From positions 1 through 64,000 of the forward strand of contig CAIKEH010000046.1 in assembly GCA_903826405.1 (NCBI GenBank): a DNA stretch of 64,000 bases, in the 5' to 3' direction. Within the stretch, counting starts at the first letter, position 1; each line of letters starts with the position of its first letter. Position numbers and translations under genes: made by a program. The notes below the pieces were generated by a model, which was not told where the DNA came from, searched no databases, and saw nothing but the letters and a program-made list of their open reading frames with translations. The stretch is from an uncultured bacterium. Lineage in GTDB: Bacteria; Bacteroidota; Bacteroidia; Chitinophagales; Chitinophagaceae. Shown piece after piece: positions 38,804-47,138 of this stretch.

Positions 38804-39820
38804 ATGATCATCGATTATCGTTCTGATACCGTGACTCGACCCACTGCGGGCATGCGTGATGCCATGTTCCGTGCCCCGCTCGGGGATGATGTGTTCGGCG
38901 AAGACCCTACAGTAAATGAACTGGAAGAAAAGGCTGCAGCACTTTTTGGCCTGGAAGCCGCCCTTTTCTGCCCTTCTGGTACCATGACCAATCAGATCGC
39001 CATCAGATGCCATACGCAGCCAGGGGACGAGGTAATTTGTGATGTCAATTCCCATATTTACCAATATGAAGGGGGTGGCATAGCCTCCAATTCCGGCGCT
39101 TCTGTGGCTATACTGGAGGGTGACAGGGGCAGGATTACTGCGGAACAGGTCAGCGCCGCCATACAACCAGATGATGTCCACCGTCCTATTTCTCGATTGG
39201 TTAGCTTGGAAAATACCTGCAACCGGGGTGGAGGAAGCTGTTATGATTGGAGCCAGATTCAGAGGATCAAACAGACCTGCCTGGAAAAAGGACTGTCCTT
39301 GCATTTAGACGGGGCCAGATTGTTCAATGCATTGGTATTCAATAAGGAAGACCCAAAAAATTATGGAAAAACATTCGATTCCATATCCATTTGCCTAAGT
39401 AAAGGCCTAGGCGCCCCTGTCGGCAGTCTTTTGATAGGAAATAAACATTTCATCAAGAAATCAAGAAGGATTCGCAAGGTATTCGGCGGAGGCATGCGAC
39501 AGGCCGGAATGCTTGCTGCAGCAGGCCTGTATGCATTGGAACATCATGTCGATAGACTGGAAGAAGACCATAGACATGCCTCAATCATCGCCCATTGCCT
39601 GTCGTTGAAATCTTTTGTCAAGGAGGTTCTTCCCGTCGAAACCAATATCATCGTGGCTGAATTGACCCCAGATATGCCCCCCACGACCTTGGTTGAAAAA
39701 TGGAAAAAGAATGGAATCTTGATCTTTGCCATCTCCCCTACCCGAATCAGGATGGTAACTCATTTGGACATCAGCCCATCCATGGTCGACCACACCTTGC
39801 AAATCATTGAAAATATTTGA
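38804..39820 (+). CDS. ltaE: low-specificity L-threonine aldolase
   Basis: 338 residues, PLP-dependent fold type I. It cleaves L-threonine/allo-threonine to glycine and acetaldehyde. The PLP lysine is Lys200 in [14 protein letters not shown], the aspartate that binds the pyridine is in [10 protein letters not shown] (Asp169), and the N-terminal [10 protein letters not shown] is diagnostic. A TAAATTCG box (38792-38799) ends four bases before the ATG, so the mRNA may be leaderless. The stop lies two bases before the pgi ATG. Confidence 0.92.
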
Positions 39821-39822
39821 AT

Positions 39823-41472
39823 ATGAGTTTCCCGAAGATCGACCCTACTTCCACTGCAACCTGGAAGCGTCTTGCCGCCCACCAGAAGGAATTGTCCTCC
39901 CGTTCACTCGCATCTCTCTTCCGTGATTCACCTGACCGATTCACTCAGTATTCACTGAAGACAGGAGACATTCTATTCGATTATTCCAAGAACCGGATGG
40001 ATGAGCAGACCAAAAACCTGCTGCTTCAACTCGCATCAGATTGCCACTTATCAGAGGCGATTGAAGCGATGTTCAAGGGGGAACATATCAATATGACTGA
40101 AGACAGGGCTGTTCTGCACACGGCATTACGCGATTTTTCAGGTGACCCTGTCCTGGTTGATGGAGAGAATGTGATTCCCTCGATCAGTAAAGTACGTTCC
40201 CGGATGCGTGATTTCTGTTCCTCCATCCATTCAGGAACATGGAAGGGGTATACGGGAAAACCTATTCGACATATCGTGAATATCGGCATTGGTGGAAGCG
40301 ACCTAGGGCCCGTCATGGTGACCGAGGCTCTAAGACCATATTGGATCGAAGGTATGCAGGTTCATTTCGTCTCCAATGTGGATGGGACGCATATTGCAGA
40401 AACATTCAAAAAAATTGATGTGGAGGAGACACTTTTCCTCATCGCATCCAAGACTTTCACTACCCAGGAAACCATGACCAATGCTCATACGGCCAGGGCC
40501 TGGTTCCTGGAGAAGGCGATCGATGAGGATCATATTGCAAAACATTTCGCAGCCTTATCGACCAATGAAAAGGAAGTAGTCAAATTCGGGATTCTCAAGG
40601 ATAACATGTTCGGATTCTGGGACTGGGTCGGTGGAAGATACAGCCTATGGAGCGCCATAGGGATGTCCATAGCCCTGAGTGTGGGGTACGAAAACTTCGA
40701 ATCCCTCTTGAAAGGTGCCCATCATATGGACATCCACTTCCGTAAAACCCCCTGGACAGAGAATATGCCTGTGTTGATGGCCCTCATCGGGATCTGGTAT
40801 ACTAATTTCTGGGGGGCGAGTAGCGAGGCCATTCTTCCTTATGATCAATACATGCACCGGTTCGCTGCTTATTTCCAACAGGGCAATATGGAGAGCAACG
40901 GCAAATATGTTGATAGAAACGGAACTTCCGTTACCTATACCACAGGACCCGTTATTTGGGGTGAGCCCGGAACCAATGGACAACATGCTTTTTATCAGCT
41001 TATCCATCAAGGCACCCTACTCATCCCCTGTGATTTCATCGCCCCGGTCATCAGTCATAATCCGATCGGGGATCATCATGTGAAGTTATTATCCAATTTC
41101 TTCGCTCAAACCGAAGCCCTGATGAACGGGAAATCCAAAGAAATCGTGGATAGGGAATTGTCCGAAACTACCCGTAAAGAATTGGCCCCATTCAAGGTTT
41201 TTGAAGGTAATCGTCCGACCAACAGCATACTCATCAAAAAGATCGATCCTTTCACATTGGGGCAACTGATAGCAGCATACGAACACAAGATCTTTGTGCA
41301 GGGTGTGATCTGGAACATTTATAGTTTTGATCAATGGGGAGTTGAACTGGGAAAACAATTGGCGAATGTCATTTTACCAGAACTCCGCAATGACGTGGAA
41401 ATTTCAGGTCATGATAGTTCAACAAATGGATTGATCAACCATTTCAAGTTACTCAGGGAACAAATCGACTGA
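39823..41472 (+). CDS. pgi: glucose-6-phosphate isomerase
   Basis: 549 residues. Interconverts glucose-6-phosphate and fructose-6-phosphate. Family signatures are intact: [12 protein letters not shown] near 155, [18 protein letters not shown] near 265 and the C-terminal Lys-bearing [21 protein letters not shown] near 500. The ATG at 39823 is used (a TTG in the same frame lies at 39817). It follows ltaE by two bases and is probably co-transcribed with it. Confidence 0.96.
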
Positions 41473-41490
41473 TCGAAAATTTTAAAAAAA

Positions 41491-44109
41491 TCATTCCCTG
41501 ATCAATTCCCTGATCAAAGTCCAATCATCACCTTTCAAATGAAGAATGAAATTCCTAGAACTCCCCAATATATTCCCAACATAAATACGTGTCCATCCAT
41601 CAACAGCTGGCTGCATCTTTTTTGACATCAGCAATCGTCCCGAATTATCGAAAATCCTCAATTGGAAATCTTTATTTATCTGCTTGTTCAATTTCAAGAT
41701 CAATTCATTAGAAACGGGGTTGACGACATACACGACTACAGGTTGTAGTTCAGGTTGTCCTCTTATCGTTACAATATTGCTGAATTCAAAACGTCCATCA
41801 ACATCCACCTGACGTAGTCTGTATTGTTGAACCTTACTGATATAGGACGGGTCGGTAAAGGAATAGCTGCTCTTCTGCAGGGTATTCCCCTTCCCCGAAA
41901 CGAATCCAATTTGCAGAAAATCGTATCCATTCAAGGACCGTTCCACATAAAACCCCTTATTATTGAATTCTGTGGTTGTCTCCCATCCAAGAGCCGCATG
42001 GCCTTCATAGGCTTGAACAGAAAAATTGATCAGGTGTACAGGTAATGTGGATTGAGAAATGGACAGGTCAAATTTTGATTTCGTGTTCTGTAAACCCTCG
42101 AAGACAAACAAATAGTTCGTATTGTTTGATAATCCAGAAATGGGTGGGAGTGCGCCATTGCCCATGATATCCTGACAAAGAATAGCATTAGGCCAAGTTG
42201 ACCCCGGGCAATTGGATACTTGGAATATGGTCATTTTTATACCCATCCCGGAGCAGGAAGAATAATCCACTATAGACGTATAATTGGAAATATTCAGGTT
42301 GATCGTGGAGCTTGAACTTCCGGTTAAATAAGGAAAATAGTAGGAATTATACTTGCCTATTGCCGTCCCTCCACAATTCATCTGTGCAGTTGAAGGATCC
42401 ACATTTTTGTTGGACGTAGAATAATATAGACTGATCGGGTAAGTCCCGGAGGGGGTCGGAATCATGGGCACAGTAACAGTACAATCATCGTTGGCAGGTA
42501 ACTGAGTTATCAATGGTGTCATTTCAGCATTAGGTGCTCCTATACAGCTTCCATAATATTGAGAACTATATGATAGCGCATATTGACCGGCACGTAAAGC
42601 TGAGAAATCGGGCGATCTTCTCAATTTACCCAAGCTTGCAGCAAAATTCATGACCGCAGCCGGATCACCGGATGAATAAGGTTCAATGATATGTCCTAAT
42701 GTCATGGAATGCCCTAATTCATGTAAAGCGATCGTTTCGAAATCAACTTCATTGGAAGATGGTGGACAGGGTCCAGCATTCCAGTTAATGGCCGGGGAAT
42801 TGCCCGAAACTCCTGTATGGTGAAAAACTTGATCGAATCCTACAACATACCAATTTCCATCAGTACATGTAGAGAATGCCACATAAGTCACTCCAAGAAC
42901 ACCGTTACTTAATGGGGCTCTTCCCGTAGCGGTATTGTCCCACATGATGGTATTTACACCGTCAAAACCATCAACTACTTGATTGTTTGTAGTACTACCC
43001 ATGGAAATATTATAACCCGTTGTTTTGGCCCAAGTGTCCAAAGCTCGTTCATAAGTGATCTTTTCCGCGGATGTAGAGAAATCCGCCCCCCCATTAGAGG
43101 TATTACTGGAATAATGTATCGTTGTTCCTCCAGCGCCGTTTGTATTCAGCAATTTTGGCTGAAATACATGGACACTGGGAATACTGTGAGAAAGGCTCAT
43201 GATGTTGAATTCCACAATGAGACTTACTGCAGAACTTGAAGTATTTCCGGTATTATCCATGATGCTGACCACGCCGGTACCAGCTCCAGTTGGTACTTTG
43301 ATTACGATTTGTGAATTTGACCAACTGACAATGTACGGACTATTATATGATATACTGATAGTACCGGAACCTCCATTGTCAGCATTTTTAAAAACCACTG
43401 CAGCTGAACCGGAGGCGGATCACAGATTCGTTCCGTAAATCGTCAACATATTATTAGAAGAATCTAAAATTGCACCAGCTCGAACAGATGATGGTGAAAA
43501 ACCCGTTATGATTGGACTTTGAATGGCCATAGCACTGTTTGGAACCTGAATATCCTGGGTAACAAGATAATTATGACCAGTTTGATGGATGATCTGCCGG
43601 TATAAACCGTTTTGAATATCCCCGTAATTAGTGAACAGATCGGCAGCTGTTTGTGTGATGACATTATAACTGATTAATCCCTGGGCTGAGTAAACAAATT
43701 CATAAGGGTTTTGGACAATACCATTAGGATATTGAAGTGCGATCCGATCTGGATTCAGGAAAAAAACTCCTTTCAAGCCAATTGACAAGTTTGCAATATC
43801 ACTAACCATAATTGCTGAATCGCCCAAAATTCCCCCTTCGTTTACTATGTCGATGACCGAGATATGGGAATTCCCTTTGAACACTTTCAAAATCATGACC
43901 TGGCTAGAGGTGTGTATCATCCTGTGGTTGATGTCCCAAAATGAATGTTGATTTATGACCGCACCCTCAATGATCAGGGAAGAATGCTCAACCCTTTCAT
44001 GAAGAGATATTGGATAAGCAAATTGAGCATGGGAAATTGATGTCCGGAAAACAGACAAAATTATCAAAAAGTAAGCAATCAGGATCTGCCTTGGGGATTC
44101 GTGGAGCAC
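41491..44109 (-). pseudogene. secreted metzincin protease with IPT/TIG domain and T9SS-type tail, interrupted by in-frame TGA
   Basis: Two open frames (44109-43420 and 43398-41491) lie in the same reading frame and are parted by one TGA codon at 43420-43422. Read through it, the product is about 872 codons: a signal peptide (LIILSVFRTSISHAQ), an N-terminal domain (about 30-195), an IPT/TIG domain (about 198-300, split by the stop after IYGTNL), a zinc protease domain with HELGHSMTLGH (three His and Glu) and a Met-turn (AVMNF), a beta domain, and a C-terminal T9SS type A-like sorting domain (FDNSGRLL near the end). The stop sits where TIG domains usually have Gly (GTNFG), so GGA to TGA would explain it. 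The start is GTG at 44109. The gene may be a recent pseudogene, a readthrough case or a sequencing error. Confidence 0.8.
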
Positions 44110-44156
44110 ATCAATATATACGCAAAATCAGTCCTTTTATTTTGATGAAAAAGCAT

Positions 44157-44178
44157 AAAAAAAGCCCTATAAGGGCTT
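44157..44178 (-). terminator. terminator of the DUF3276 gene
   Basis: A 7-bp stem (AAGCCCT at 44162-44168 with 44172-44178), 3-base loop, and seven T on the minus strand; 21 bases after the stop of the DUF3276 gene and upstream of the protease gene. Confidence 0.85.
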
Positions 44179-44198
44179 GAATGAAGTGTTTTGGAATT

Positions 44199-44633
44199 TC
44201 ACCATTTATCCACTTCCTCTGAACTCCCGTTGTCGTCTGTATTTGTTTCAGGGGCACGTAGTTGTACTTGAGAAGGAGGTGTGGCCTCTTCCCCACTGGT
44301 TACAGAAACATTGATATTAGATTCGTCTCTGGAATCCAGATCACCGCCATCCCCTTCAAAATCCTGATCATTCTCATGGTTGAATGCATCGAAATCAAAA
44401 TCGGGCATGAGCTCAGTTTTAACGTGATCCACAGCCTCGTTGAGTGCTTTGATGAATTTGTTGAAATCTTCCTTGTAAAGGAATATTTTATGCCGATCGT
44501 AGCCGTTATCGTTGAATCTTTTTCGACTTTCAGTTATGGTCAGATAATAATCATTGCCACGCGTTGTTCTAACATCAAAAAAATAAGTTCTTCGCTTACC
44601 AGCGCGCAGGCGTTTGCTATAGACGCTATCCAT
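44199..44633 (-). CDS. DUF3276 (PUR-like) protein
   Basis: 144 residues from the ATG at 44633. The core SVYSKRLRAGKRRTYFFDVRTTRGNDYYLTITE... is the PUR-alpha-like fold of DUF3276, a small nucleic-acid-binding domain common in Bacteroidota. The last 50 residues are acidic and disordered (DFDFDAFNHENDQDFEGDGGDLDS). The longer frame up to 44741 is rejected because a complete promoter lies inside it. Likely a cytoplasmic DNA/RNA-binding protein; a specific role is not known to me. Confidence 0.88.
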   Translation of the reverse strand: MDSVYSKRLRAGKRRTYFFDVRTTRGNDYYLTITESRKRFNDNGYDRHKIFLYKEDFNKFIKALNEAVDHVKTELMPDFDFDAFNHENDQDFEGDGGDLDSRDESNINVSVTSGEEATPPSQVQLRAPETNTDDNGSSEEVDKW

Positions 44634-44700
44634 CCTCTTTTCATTGTTGTCGTAAGCCACGATCTTTAGTTTAGGTTTAAAGAGTTCATTACCAATAAGA

Positions 44701-44730
44701 CAAAGATAAATATCCTGACGAATTGTCAAA
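44701..44730 (-). promoter_or_regulatory. promoter of the DUF3276 gene, TTTG-N18-TATCTTTG
   Basis: On the minus strand TTTG (44730-44727) and TATCTTTG (44708-44701) are 18 bases apart, identical in boxes and spacing to the promoter at 306-335. The predicted start near 44697 leaves about 64 bases of leader before the ATG at 44633 and decides that start. Confidence 0.75.
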
Positions 44731-44782
44731 ATTTCGTTCATTTCCCCAAAATATTGGCATTAATCGTTTTGAATGGTAAGAA

Positions 44783-46624
44783 TCAGTCATTCAATAAAGT
44801 CTCTCCGGAACGTTGTTTCTCATACATTTCTCTGTAAAAACCGTCCAGGGACATGAGATCCTCATGATTCCCTTCTTCTACTATTTTCCCATCTTCCATT
44901 ACTATGATTTTATCAAACTGCAGAAGGGTGAAAATCCGATGGGTGATGATCAAAGCGGTACGGCCTGTCAATTCCTTCGTCAAATTACCCAGAATCTGCT
45001 TTTCGGTACGAGAATCCACAGCGCTGAGACAATCATCGAAAAGAATAATGGGACTATTTCGTGAAATTGCTCGTGCAATGGAGATCCTTTGCTTTTGTCC
45101 ACCACTTAAAGTAACACCACGTTCACCAACTGGCGTGTCATATCCTTCAGAAAAGGTTTGAATATCTGAATCTACGGATGCTGCTATAGCTGCGTTTTGG
45201 ATGTCCGAAAAAGGTATTCCGCGATCGCCAAAACCAATATTCCCAGCTATGGTGTCGCTGAAAAGAAAGGTATCCTGTGGCACATAAGATATCTCCCGGC
45301 GCAATTTTTTTAATGACAAGGAACGAATATCTGTTCCGCCTAAAAATATACTTCCACTGTCCACATCATACATGCGGAGGATGAGTTGAGCCAATGTGGA
45401 TTTCCCACTACCGGTTCTGCCGATGATAGCCACTTTAGTGCCTGCGCTAACATTCAAACTGAAATCCTGAAGGGCGGTTATGCCCGTATCAGGATAGGTG
45501 AATGTAACATCCTGAAAGATCAACCCAGACTTACCAGTAGTATCAAATTTTTCCGGGGGTTCTTTGATCGCCGGTTCCGAGGCTAAAAATTCATTGATCC
45601 TTTTTTGAGATGCGGAAGCTCGCTGTATCATACTGGCCACCCAGCCCACTGCGATTACCGGGAAAGTGAGCATATTGATATATACAACGAATTCAGCGAT
45701 CGTTCCACCTGATATCAAATGATCTACTTGATAGCGGCCCCCTATATAAATGGTCATTAAGGTACTGAAACCCATGATCAGTGCGATTACCGGGAAATAC
45801 AGAGCTTCTACTTTAGCCAGACTGATAGCTGATTTCATATACGCTTCACTGTTCGTGTTGAAAAAACCTTGCATCGATTTTTCCTGTACAAAAGATTTGA
45901 TGACCCTGATACCCGAATAGGATTCCTGTGCGTTGGTGGTCAGGTCGCTCAATTTCGCCTGAATGAATTCACTTTTTTTATTGATAATGGTATTCACGGA
46001 ATATATAAGGAAAGCAAGAATCGGGAGCGGTGAAAGTACGTAAAGGGAAAGTGTAAAATCTTTTCTAAACATGTAGAACAAACTCAAAGAAATGAGTGCG
46101 ATAAGATTCACAAAGTACATAATGGCAGGTCCAGTGTACATACGAACTCTACTGACATCTTCGGTCATCCTGCTCATCAAGTCACCCGTGCTATGCATTT
46201 TGAAAAATCGGAGGTCCAATTTCTGGTAATGTTCGTATATGGCATTTTTTTGATCAAATTCAATATGTCTGCTCATGACAATTATGGTTTGTCGCATCAA
46301 GAACATGAAGAAACCTCTCAATAATGCCAAAAAAAGAAGTATCAAACCACATAAAATGATGATAGTCCCGTATGAGAGAGTTGATCGTTCAATAATATCT
46401 ATGACAAAATGTACTAGCGGGTCAAATACTACTTTGCCAGGGGCTTTTTCAGAACCAGAATGGTGGAGTAAGGCTATTTGATGTTGAACTTTATCAACAA
46501 TGAAACCTGTTATCTGCGGAGCAAGGACACCAAAATAATTAGAGATGATTATAAAGAAAATTCCTGCCAGAAAACGCCATCGATATTTCCAGAAATAGAA
46601 ATGGACAGAATTCAGATTTTTCAT
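44783..46624 (-). CDS. ABC exporter, fused membrane and ATPase domains
   Basis: 613 residues, with six membrane helices (about 15-330) and an ATPase domain (about 360-600), the half-transporter layout of MsbA/BmrA-type exporters. Walker A GRTGSGKST, signature LSGGQKQRIS and the switch His in IITHRI are present. At the end of Walker B the catalytic Glu is Asp531 (ILFDDCLSAVD). Such a change is typical of the non-canonical half of heterodimeric exporters (BmrC-like), whose partner supplies the intact site; no partner gene lies nearby. The substrate is unknown; lipid or drug export is usual for the family. Confidence 0.9.
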   Translation of the reverse strand: MKNLNSVHFYFWKYRWRFLAGIFFIIISNYFGVLAPQITGFIVDKVQHQIALLHHSGSEKAPGKVVFDPLVHFVIDIIERSTLSYGTIIILCGLILLFLALLRGFFMFLMRQTIIVMSRHIEFDQKNAIYEHYQKLDLRFFKMHSTGDLMSRMTEDVSRVRMYTGPAIMYFVNLIALISLSLFYMFRKDFTLSLYVLSPLPILAFLIYSVNTIINKKSEFIQAKLSDLTTNAQESYSGIRVIKSFVQEKSMQGFFNTNSEAYMKSAISLAKVEALYFPVIALIMGFSTLMTIYIGGRYQVDHLISGGTIAEFVVYINMLTFPVIAVGWVASMIQRASASQKRINEFLASEPAIKEPPEKFDTTGKSGLIFQDVTFTYPDTGITALQDFSLNVSAGTKVAIIGRTGSGKSTLAQLILRMYDVDSGSIFLGGTDIRSLSLKKLRREISYVPQDTFLFSDTIAGNIGFGDRGIPFSDIQNAAIAASVDSDIQTFSEGYDTPVGERGVTLSGGQKQRISIARAISRNSPIILFDDCLSAVDSRTEKQILGNLTKELTGRTALIITHRIFTLLQFDKIIVMEDGKIVEEGNHEDLMSLDGFYREMYEKQRSGETLLND

Positions 46625-46711
46625 AATATATAAAGGTAAGGCAAAAGCATAATGATTTGCATTGTTGATATTCTAACCCAACCATGTATAAAATCAGGTC
46701 ACAAAGTGGGA

Positions 46712-46743
46712 TTTGTCAGATATGACCTATTTGAGTATTTTTG
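46712..46743 (+). promoter_or_regulatory. promoter abutting tRNA-Ser(TGA)
   Basis: TTTG at 46712-46715 and TATTTTTG at 46736-46743 with a 20-base spacer. The predicted first base (46747-46748) falls on the first base of the tRNA. Confidence 0.6.
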
Positions 46744-46747
46744 TCGT

Positions 46748-46832
46748 GGAGAGATGGCAGAGCGGTCGAATGCGGCGGTCTTGAAAACCGTTGAAGTGAA
46801 AGCTTCCGGGGGTTCGAATCCCTCTCTCTCCG
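46748..46832 (+). tRNA. tRNA-Ser (anticodon TGA)
   Basis: 85 bases. Acceptor GGAGAGA pairs with TCTCTCC; the anticodon loop is CTTGAAA; a long variable arm, as in class II tRNAs, lies between anticodon and T arms; T loop TTCGAAT. CCA is not encoded. Confidence 0.97.
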
Positions 46833-46840
46833 CAGCATTA

Positions 46841-46867
46841 AACCCGCGATTCAACCGCGGGTTTTTT
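46841..46867 (+). terminator. terminator after tRNA-Ser(TGA)
   Basis: An 8-bp stem (AACCCGCG at 46841-46848 with 46856-46863) and a 7-base loop, followed by TTTT. It would separate the two tRNA-Ser transcripts. Confidence 0.8.
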
Positions 46868-46931
46868 ATGTAAGTAGAATCGAATAAAGTGAATGACGAA
46901 ACTTGATGGACAGGGCAAAATGATTTATAAA

Positions 46932-47018
46932 GGAGAGATGCCAGAGCGGTTGAATGGGACGGTCTCGAAAACCGTTGTATGGGCAACTGTACCGAGGGTT
47001 CGAATCCCTCTCTCTCCG
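46932..47018 (+). tRNA. tRNA-Ser (anticodon CGA)
   Basis: 87 bases. The same acceptor stem as its neighbour (GGAGAGA/TCTCTCC), anticodon loop TCTCGAAAA centre CGA, a long variable arm and T loop TTCGAAT. It reads UCG codons. It lies 99 bases after the first tRNA-Ser and is probably an old duplicate of it. CCA is not encoded. Confidence 0.97.
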
Positions 47019-47138
47019 CGTATGATTCCATTTCAATATGGCATCAAACCACTGGAATCAATGTAAAAAACTAATGATTCAAGCTAAAGTCTCTAAAAAC
47101 TATTTATCATTTACATCGAGTTATTTTCATAATAAAAA

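Follow-up and report, generated by a model that had tools for sequence, protein, structure and literature searches.

A probable recent nonsense allele of a T9SS-type metzincin-like protease gene in an uncultured member of the Chitinophagaceae

A gene for a secreted metzincin-like protease was found to be interrupted by a single in-frame TGA in the window, the whole 64,000-nucleotide stretch of DNA that was analysed. With a GTG start assumed, the gene occupies 41491..44109 on the minus strand, as judged by frame reading and by alignment to relatives, and frame reading places the premature TGA at 43420..43422 on the same strand, at codon 230 counted from the GTG at 44109. The stop stands where the relatives are open, as is expected of a nonsense-interrupted gene. 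From comparison of the sequences, we consider it probable that a dispensable T9SS-type secreted protease gene, on which constraint had probably already loosened, has recently acquired a nonsense mutation.

The 5' frame comprises 229 codons from the GTG at 44109 to the TGA at 43422-43420 on the minus strand, and is followed immediately, in the same frame, by an open frame of 642 codons that ends at a TGA at 41493-41491. When 41491..44109 is read as one frame it contains exactly two stops, the premature and the terminal TGA, and 871 sense codons, so that the gene carries a single lesion and no frame break. These two stops, together with homology on both sides, bear out the proposal of an earlier note on this DNA that one in-frame TGA separates two frames of one gene, and its coordinates and codon number are correct. 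The 5' piece (43420..44109, minus strand) encodes a signal-peptide-like N-terminus (by eye), an N-terminal domain common to the relatives and the first part of a TIG-like domain, and ends at the premature TGA. The 3' piece (41491..43419, minus strand) encodes the remainder of the TIG-like domain, the metzincin domain and a degenerate T9SS type A tail. The gene begins with GTG and has no ATG there, the start Met of the relatives being aligned to a Pro of the window's copy. A codon-usage score computed across the premature TGA ranks the site 872 of 1726 stops and carries no information on coding on both sides; the continuity of the gene across the stop therefore rests on homology.

Both pieces align in order to uninterrupted relatives with open frames of 793-963 codons. 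For the same-genus relative L002 (892 aa), residues 8-851 span the window's gene across the stop, with 1 TGA inside. A search with L002 through 294 genomes of the family gave a match at E<=1e-25 in 63 of them, some to the tail only, and among the matches listed the window's gene is the only one with an internal stop. The premature stop is private among the genomes searched. Each piece was also compared on its own with 10 stretches at the relatives' loci; both matched and were directly consecutive in 8, and the remaining 2 are surroundings, without the protease, of the neighbouring gene pgi (39817..41472 in the window, plus strand), which we take to encode glucose-6-phosphate isomerase. Thirty-one relatives were aligned (L002 and L039-L068), and alignment A1 holds 30 of these 31, L055, which is cut by a contig end, being omitted. 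With the window's stop entered as X, the stop column holds Gly in 29 of the 31 aligned relatives and Thr in the other 2, in agreement with the earlier suggestion that Gly is usual at this position. The TIG domain had also been described as running through the stop; the TIG-like block is indeed smooth in the alignment of the relatives, but the Pfam TIG model, which at E<=0.01 recognizes 12 of 30 intact relatives, recognizes neither piece of the window's gene alone.

On these alignments, the two pieces are one split gene and not chance same-frame neighbours. Since a GTG lies 7 codons past the premature TGA, one might instead suppose that each piece is a functional gene, the first encoding a short secreted N-terminal protein and the second a protease with its own start. 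Such an arrangement is extremely improbable: the first ATG of the downstream frame lies only at codon 53, the 3' piece shows no signal peptide by eye and so would not undergo T9SS export, and the split falls inside a block that is continuous in all 31 aligned relatives.

The relatives are laid out alike: a start that by eye resembles a signal peptide is followed by an N-terminal domain, a TIG-like domain, a metzincin-type zinc site with a conserved Met downstream of it, and a T9SS type A tail. Metzincins are recognized by the motif HExxHxxxxxH with a downstream Met-turn. The sequence of the window's gene carries this motif: as had been noted earlier, a zinc site and a Met-turn are present downstream of the stop, and in the alignment with the 31 relatives the window's copy keeps HELGHSMTLGH (42691..42723, minus strand, by sequence and alignment) and the aligned Met of the Met-turn. 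The closest counterparts are these 31 same-family T9SS type A metzincin-like proteases, whose layout equals that of the window's gene; the latter differs from them by the premature TGA, the GTG start, the degenerate sorting tail and the reverse orientation.

More distant resemblances were found in the domain collections. Matrixin (Peptidase_M10, PF00413) gives a weak match at the zinc site, reaching E<=0.01 in 27 of 30 relatives, but the window's piece, with 19.1 bits, falls short of the cut-off of 24. The myxosortase-dependent metalloprotease model NF041905 (MXAN_2677/2678 family) reaches E<=0.01 in 16 of 30 relatives, and its match in L002 and the window sits around the zinc site. Its cut-off of 250, however, is far above the scores of L002 (24.5) and the window (12), the two rows seen, and the relatives and the window's gene carry a T9SS tail at the C-terminus. 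In scans of Pfam and NCBIfam, no model covered the whole family, that is, the N-terminal domain, the TIG-like domain, the metzincin domain and the T9SS tail. Among solved structures, the window's 3' piece found no match with E below 0.66, and a profile of 30 relatives found five chains that are T9SS substrates or tails, a single TIG protein and, as a weak match, a matrix metalloproteinase. The literature search, covering titles and abstract openings among the matches listed, returned nothing on this T9SS metzincin-like protease family. The N-terminal domain, encoded within 43420-44109 and common to the relatives, has no clear Pfam name in them and gives no Pfam or NCBIfam match above cut-off, which makes it a candidate unnamed domain.

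An intact frame beyond the stop could also mean that the UGA is read through or recoded, yielding a low level of full-length protease, as the earlier note had allowed. The downstream frame is without further lesion, and an excerpt of PMC7918605 describes bacterial genes that contain in-frame stops and yet are under purifying selection. The stop column, however, holds a sense residue in 31 of 31 relatives and Trp or Cys in 0 of 31. Comparison with the codon of relatives, proposed earlier as a check, thus shows that the stop is not conserved across species (no other listed match is interrupted), as it would be in programmed UGA readthrough, and this favours decay or error over recoding. The machinery of selenocysteine insertion was sought in the window's genome. 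The best SelB match scores 187 bits, below the cut-off of 242.25, and falls on a 405-aa frame that is taken to be EF-Tu by its size; 2 of 14 control genomes exceed this cut-off. The best tRNA-Sec candidate scores 43.1, below the gathering score of 47 (150 of 362 candidates scored), which is exceeded in 5 of 14 control genomes, and the nine candidate places all coincide with tRNAs of other anticodons. The fold of the 61 bases from the UGA on is ordinary (z of -1.38, with 20 of 200 shuffles equally good), and a search of 40500-45000 gave no Rfam family at gathering score. Selenocysteine was rejected on the SelB and tRNA-Sec scores and the RNA fold. A UCA anticodon occurs in 0 of 38 tRNAs of the genome, a set that is incomplete in that no Ile tRNA is named, and this is a strong but not absolute argument against a suppressor tRNA or a reassigned code; both were rejected, TGA also being in use as the terminator of the interrupted gene and of other long frames of the genome sample. 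The recoding tests being negative and the stop private, readthrough found no direct support, and we regard it as improbable.

A leaky tRNA-Trp would be one route to such readthrough. According to an excerpt of PMC13092985, variants of the E. coli tRNA-Trp with G24A or G43U read UGA more easily, position 27 there being C. The tRNA-Trp of the window's genome (L087:1500-1571) has U11-A24 and G27-U43 pairs by hand numbering, so that its A24 and G27-U43 resemble these variants; in the structure predicted to have the lowest energy, its anticodon stem is retained but the usual D arm is absent. The same tRNA-Trp, letter for letter, is present in 4 of 39 other genomes searched, all of the same genus, and cannot therefore explain a private stop; its D-stem letters are common to further relatives, though not to the same-genus genome G021. 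If this tRNA read the UGA, Trp would go into a Gly/Thr column. By analogy, the tRNA-Trp of the lineage might read UGA leakily and allow a little full-length protease, the stop then being tolerated as a means of throttling a secreted enzyme that is costly, a notion that we hold to be highly improbable.

If the gene had long been free of constraint, further stops would be expected, and we simulated random substitutions in three intact relatives with 60 trials per gene and rate. With 0.02 changes per site the mean was 1.5-2.1 stops, rising to 7.5-8.9 with 0.1 and to 23.6-27.2 with 0.5. A single stop without a frame break indicates that the gene stayed in frame during almost the whole of its divergence from the relatives, and the absence of a second lesion indicates that the loss is recent. 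The earlier view of a recent event thus agrees with one stop against the 7.5-8.9 expected at 0.1 neutral changes per site. Bacterial in-frame stops are widespread and persist for short times, as far as the excerpted account of Belinky et al. 2021 (PMC7918605) goes, and such short persistence fits a recent nonsense mutation. The genes in that excerpt resemble the window's gene in being otherwise open bacterial genes with one in-frame stop, but the main set described there consists of stops common to at least two species, whereas the window's stop is private.

The same evidence can be turned against the loss reading, since decay rests on one base, with no second lesion, and an assembly error is accordingly possible. 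Under a base-calling or assembly error the gene would be intact in the organism, and a single lesion in 871 sense codons, with zinc site and Met-turn intact, would be seen. We surveyed same-frame pairs separated by a single stop in 463,350 bases, comprising the window and 20 further stretches (~13% of the genome), and found 22 pairs of long frames that share a frame across one stop. In 19 of the 22, the downstream ATG lies within 33 codons, as in separate genes; the three exceptions are the window's protease, a two-ORF transposase and a pair whose first frame is antisense to another frame. No second gene split by one stop was seen among the 22 pairs, as judged by start codons and eye, with Pfam on three pairs. 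Three pairs, picked out by a late ATG or an odd downstream frame, were considered and rejected as split genes of this kind: that in L163 is the two-ORF transposase (Pfam), that in L164 involves a frame antisense to another frame, and that in L161 is a complete-looking enzyme followed by a frame without a family, as far as Pfam shows. Single-stop splits are uncommon in this assembly, which suggests that errors of this kind are infrequent. The window's copy also bears independent signs of weak constraint, in its conserved columns and its sorting tail. An error is unlikely, though more probable than readthrough. The L163 pair itself (L163:5029-6345, same genome) consists of a helix-turn-helix frame, a TAA and an integrase core frame in the same frame.

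The sorting tail had been described as intact, and this did not hold. The C-terminal sorting-domain region (41491..41740, minus strand) has lost its conserved motifs, with VNP instead of PNP and no GxY, that is, the conserved first Pro of the former and the Gly and Tyr of the latter. With PF18962 the window's tail has an E of 0.17 and reaches 12.6 bits where the cut-off is 27, whereas 30 of 30 relatives reach E<=0.01. TIGR04183 gives 15.9 bits against a cut-off of 23; its E of 0.0097 would still satisfy the loose limit of E<=0.01 passed by all 30 relatives. The window's protease thus has no T9SS type A sorting domain above either family cut-off, and its tail is absent from the 29 tails found genome-wide at E<=0.001. 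The secretion system itself is present in the genome, where SprA scores 2496 bits (cut-off 200) in an open frame of 2411 aa and 28 PF18962 tails are over the cut-off. By its residues the sorting tail is degenerate.

Changes are not confined to the tail. Columns were counted as conserved when at least 90% of the other relatives agree there. Upstream of the stop the window's copy departs from 14 of 52 such columns and downstream of it from 24 of 111, and on neither side does any other of the 32 rows deviate as much; the next most deviant row, L066, deviates at 12 of 54 and 14 of 114, respectively. Deviation on both sides is as expected if weak constraint preceded the stop, or if the lineage is merely divergent. 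Trees of the protease and pgi were compared for 23 genomes (25 were searched; G240, with no match, and G189, with a partial match, were dropped). The protease tip branch of the window's genome is the longest of the 23 (1.19), and its pgi is also divergent; the protease/pgi tip ratio of 3.54 ranks 7th of 23 and the mean-distance ratio of 2.94 ranks 4th of 23. Faster evolution of the protease relative to pgi was therefore rejected, the branch being long but within the range of other genomes, and part of the divergence is simply that of a divergent lineage. Stops flagged in the pgi of three relatives proved on checking to lie outside the aligned part.

The orientation of the gene is also altered. 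In the genomes of 23 relatives where pgi and the protease were both located, they are adjacent and in one direction in 8, far apart on one contig in 2 and on different contigs in 13. The window has the protease in the same slot beside pgi but reversed, so that pgi and the protease converge. On the far side of the slot lies a small conserved gene (44199..44741, minus strand), found at the same place in five relatives; it was reached in 5 of 8 fetched stretches (L137, L138, L140, L141 and L142), pointing the other way. The reversal was considered as an invertible switch and this was rejected, since among the best 25 of 39 inverted-repeat pairs (the longest) in 41300-44400 none links one end of the protease gene to the other. 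Because the gene is reversed in its slot, its sorting tail is degraded and many conserved residues are changed, it was probably under weak constraint already before the stop arose.

The distribution of the gene points in the same direction. The protease part has no other copy in the window's genome, the other eight matches being confined to the tail region of the 635-residue query, within residues 424-601, and of 36 other members of the genus only G021 has a match over the protease part among the matches listed. Such patchy presence in the genus counts for the loss of a dispensable gene. In G021, the slot that pgi and the small gene flank is empty (L145:1900-2200), and the protease lies elsewhere, adjoining a gene that we presume to be fumarase-like. 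A second homologue lies inside a 2122-residue frame.

Read as a recent nonsense allele, the gene would be translated only as far as residue 229, and the exported product would be a short fragment that lacks both the protease domain and the sorting tail. Having no signal peptide, the 3' part would not yield a secreted protein. The gene would then be dispensable and probably weakly constrained before the stop, and what is seen is probably ordinary gene loss caught early. The case would serve as an example of early loss, in which one stop has struck a secreted protease gene that was already reversed and had lost its sorting motifs. It also calls for caution, in that an open frame past a stop and an intact active site are alone no argument for readthrough.

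Elsewhere in the window, two tRNA-Ser genes (46748-46833 and 46932-47019) are overlapped in antisense by a 110-aa ORF (46699-47031, minus strand) that probably does not represent a gene.
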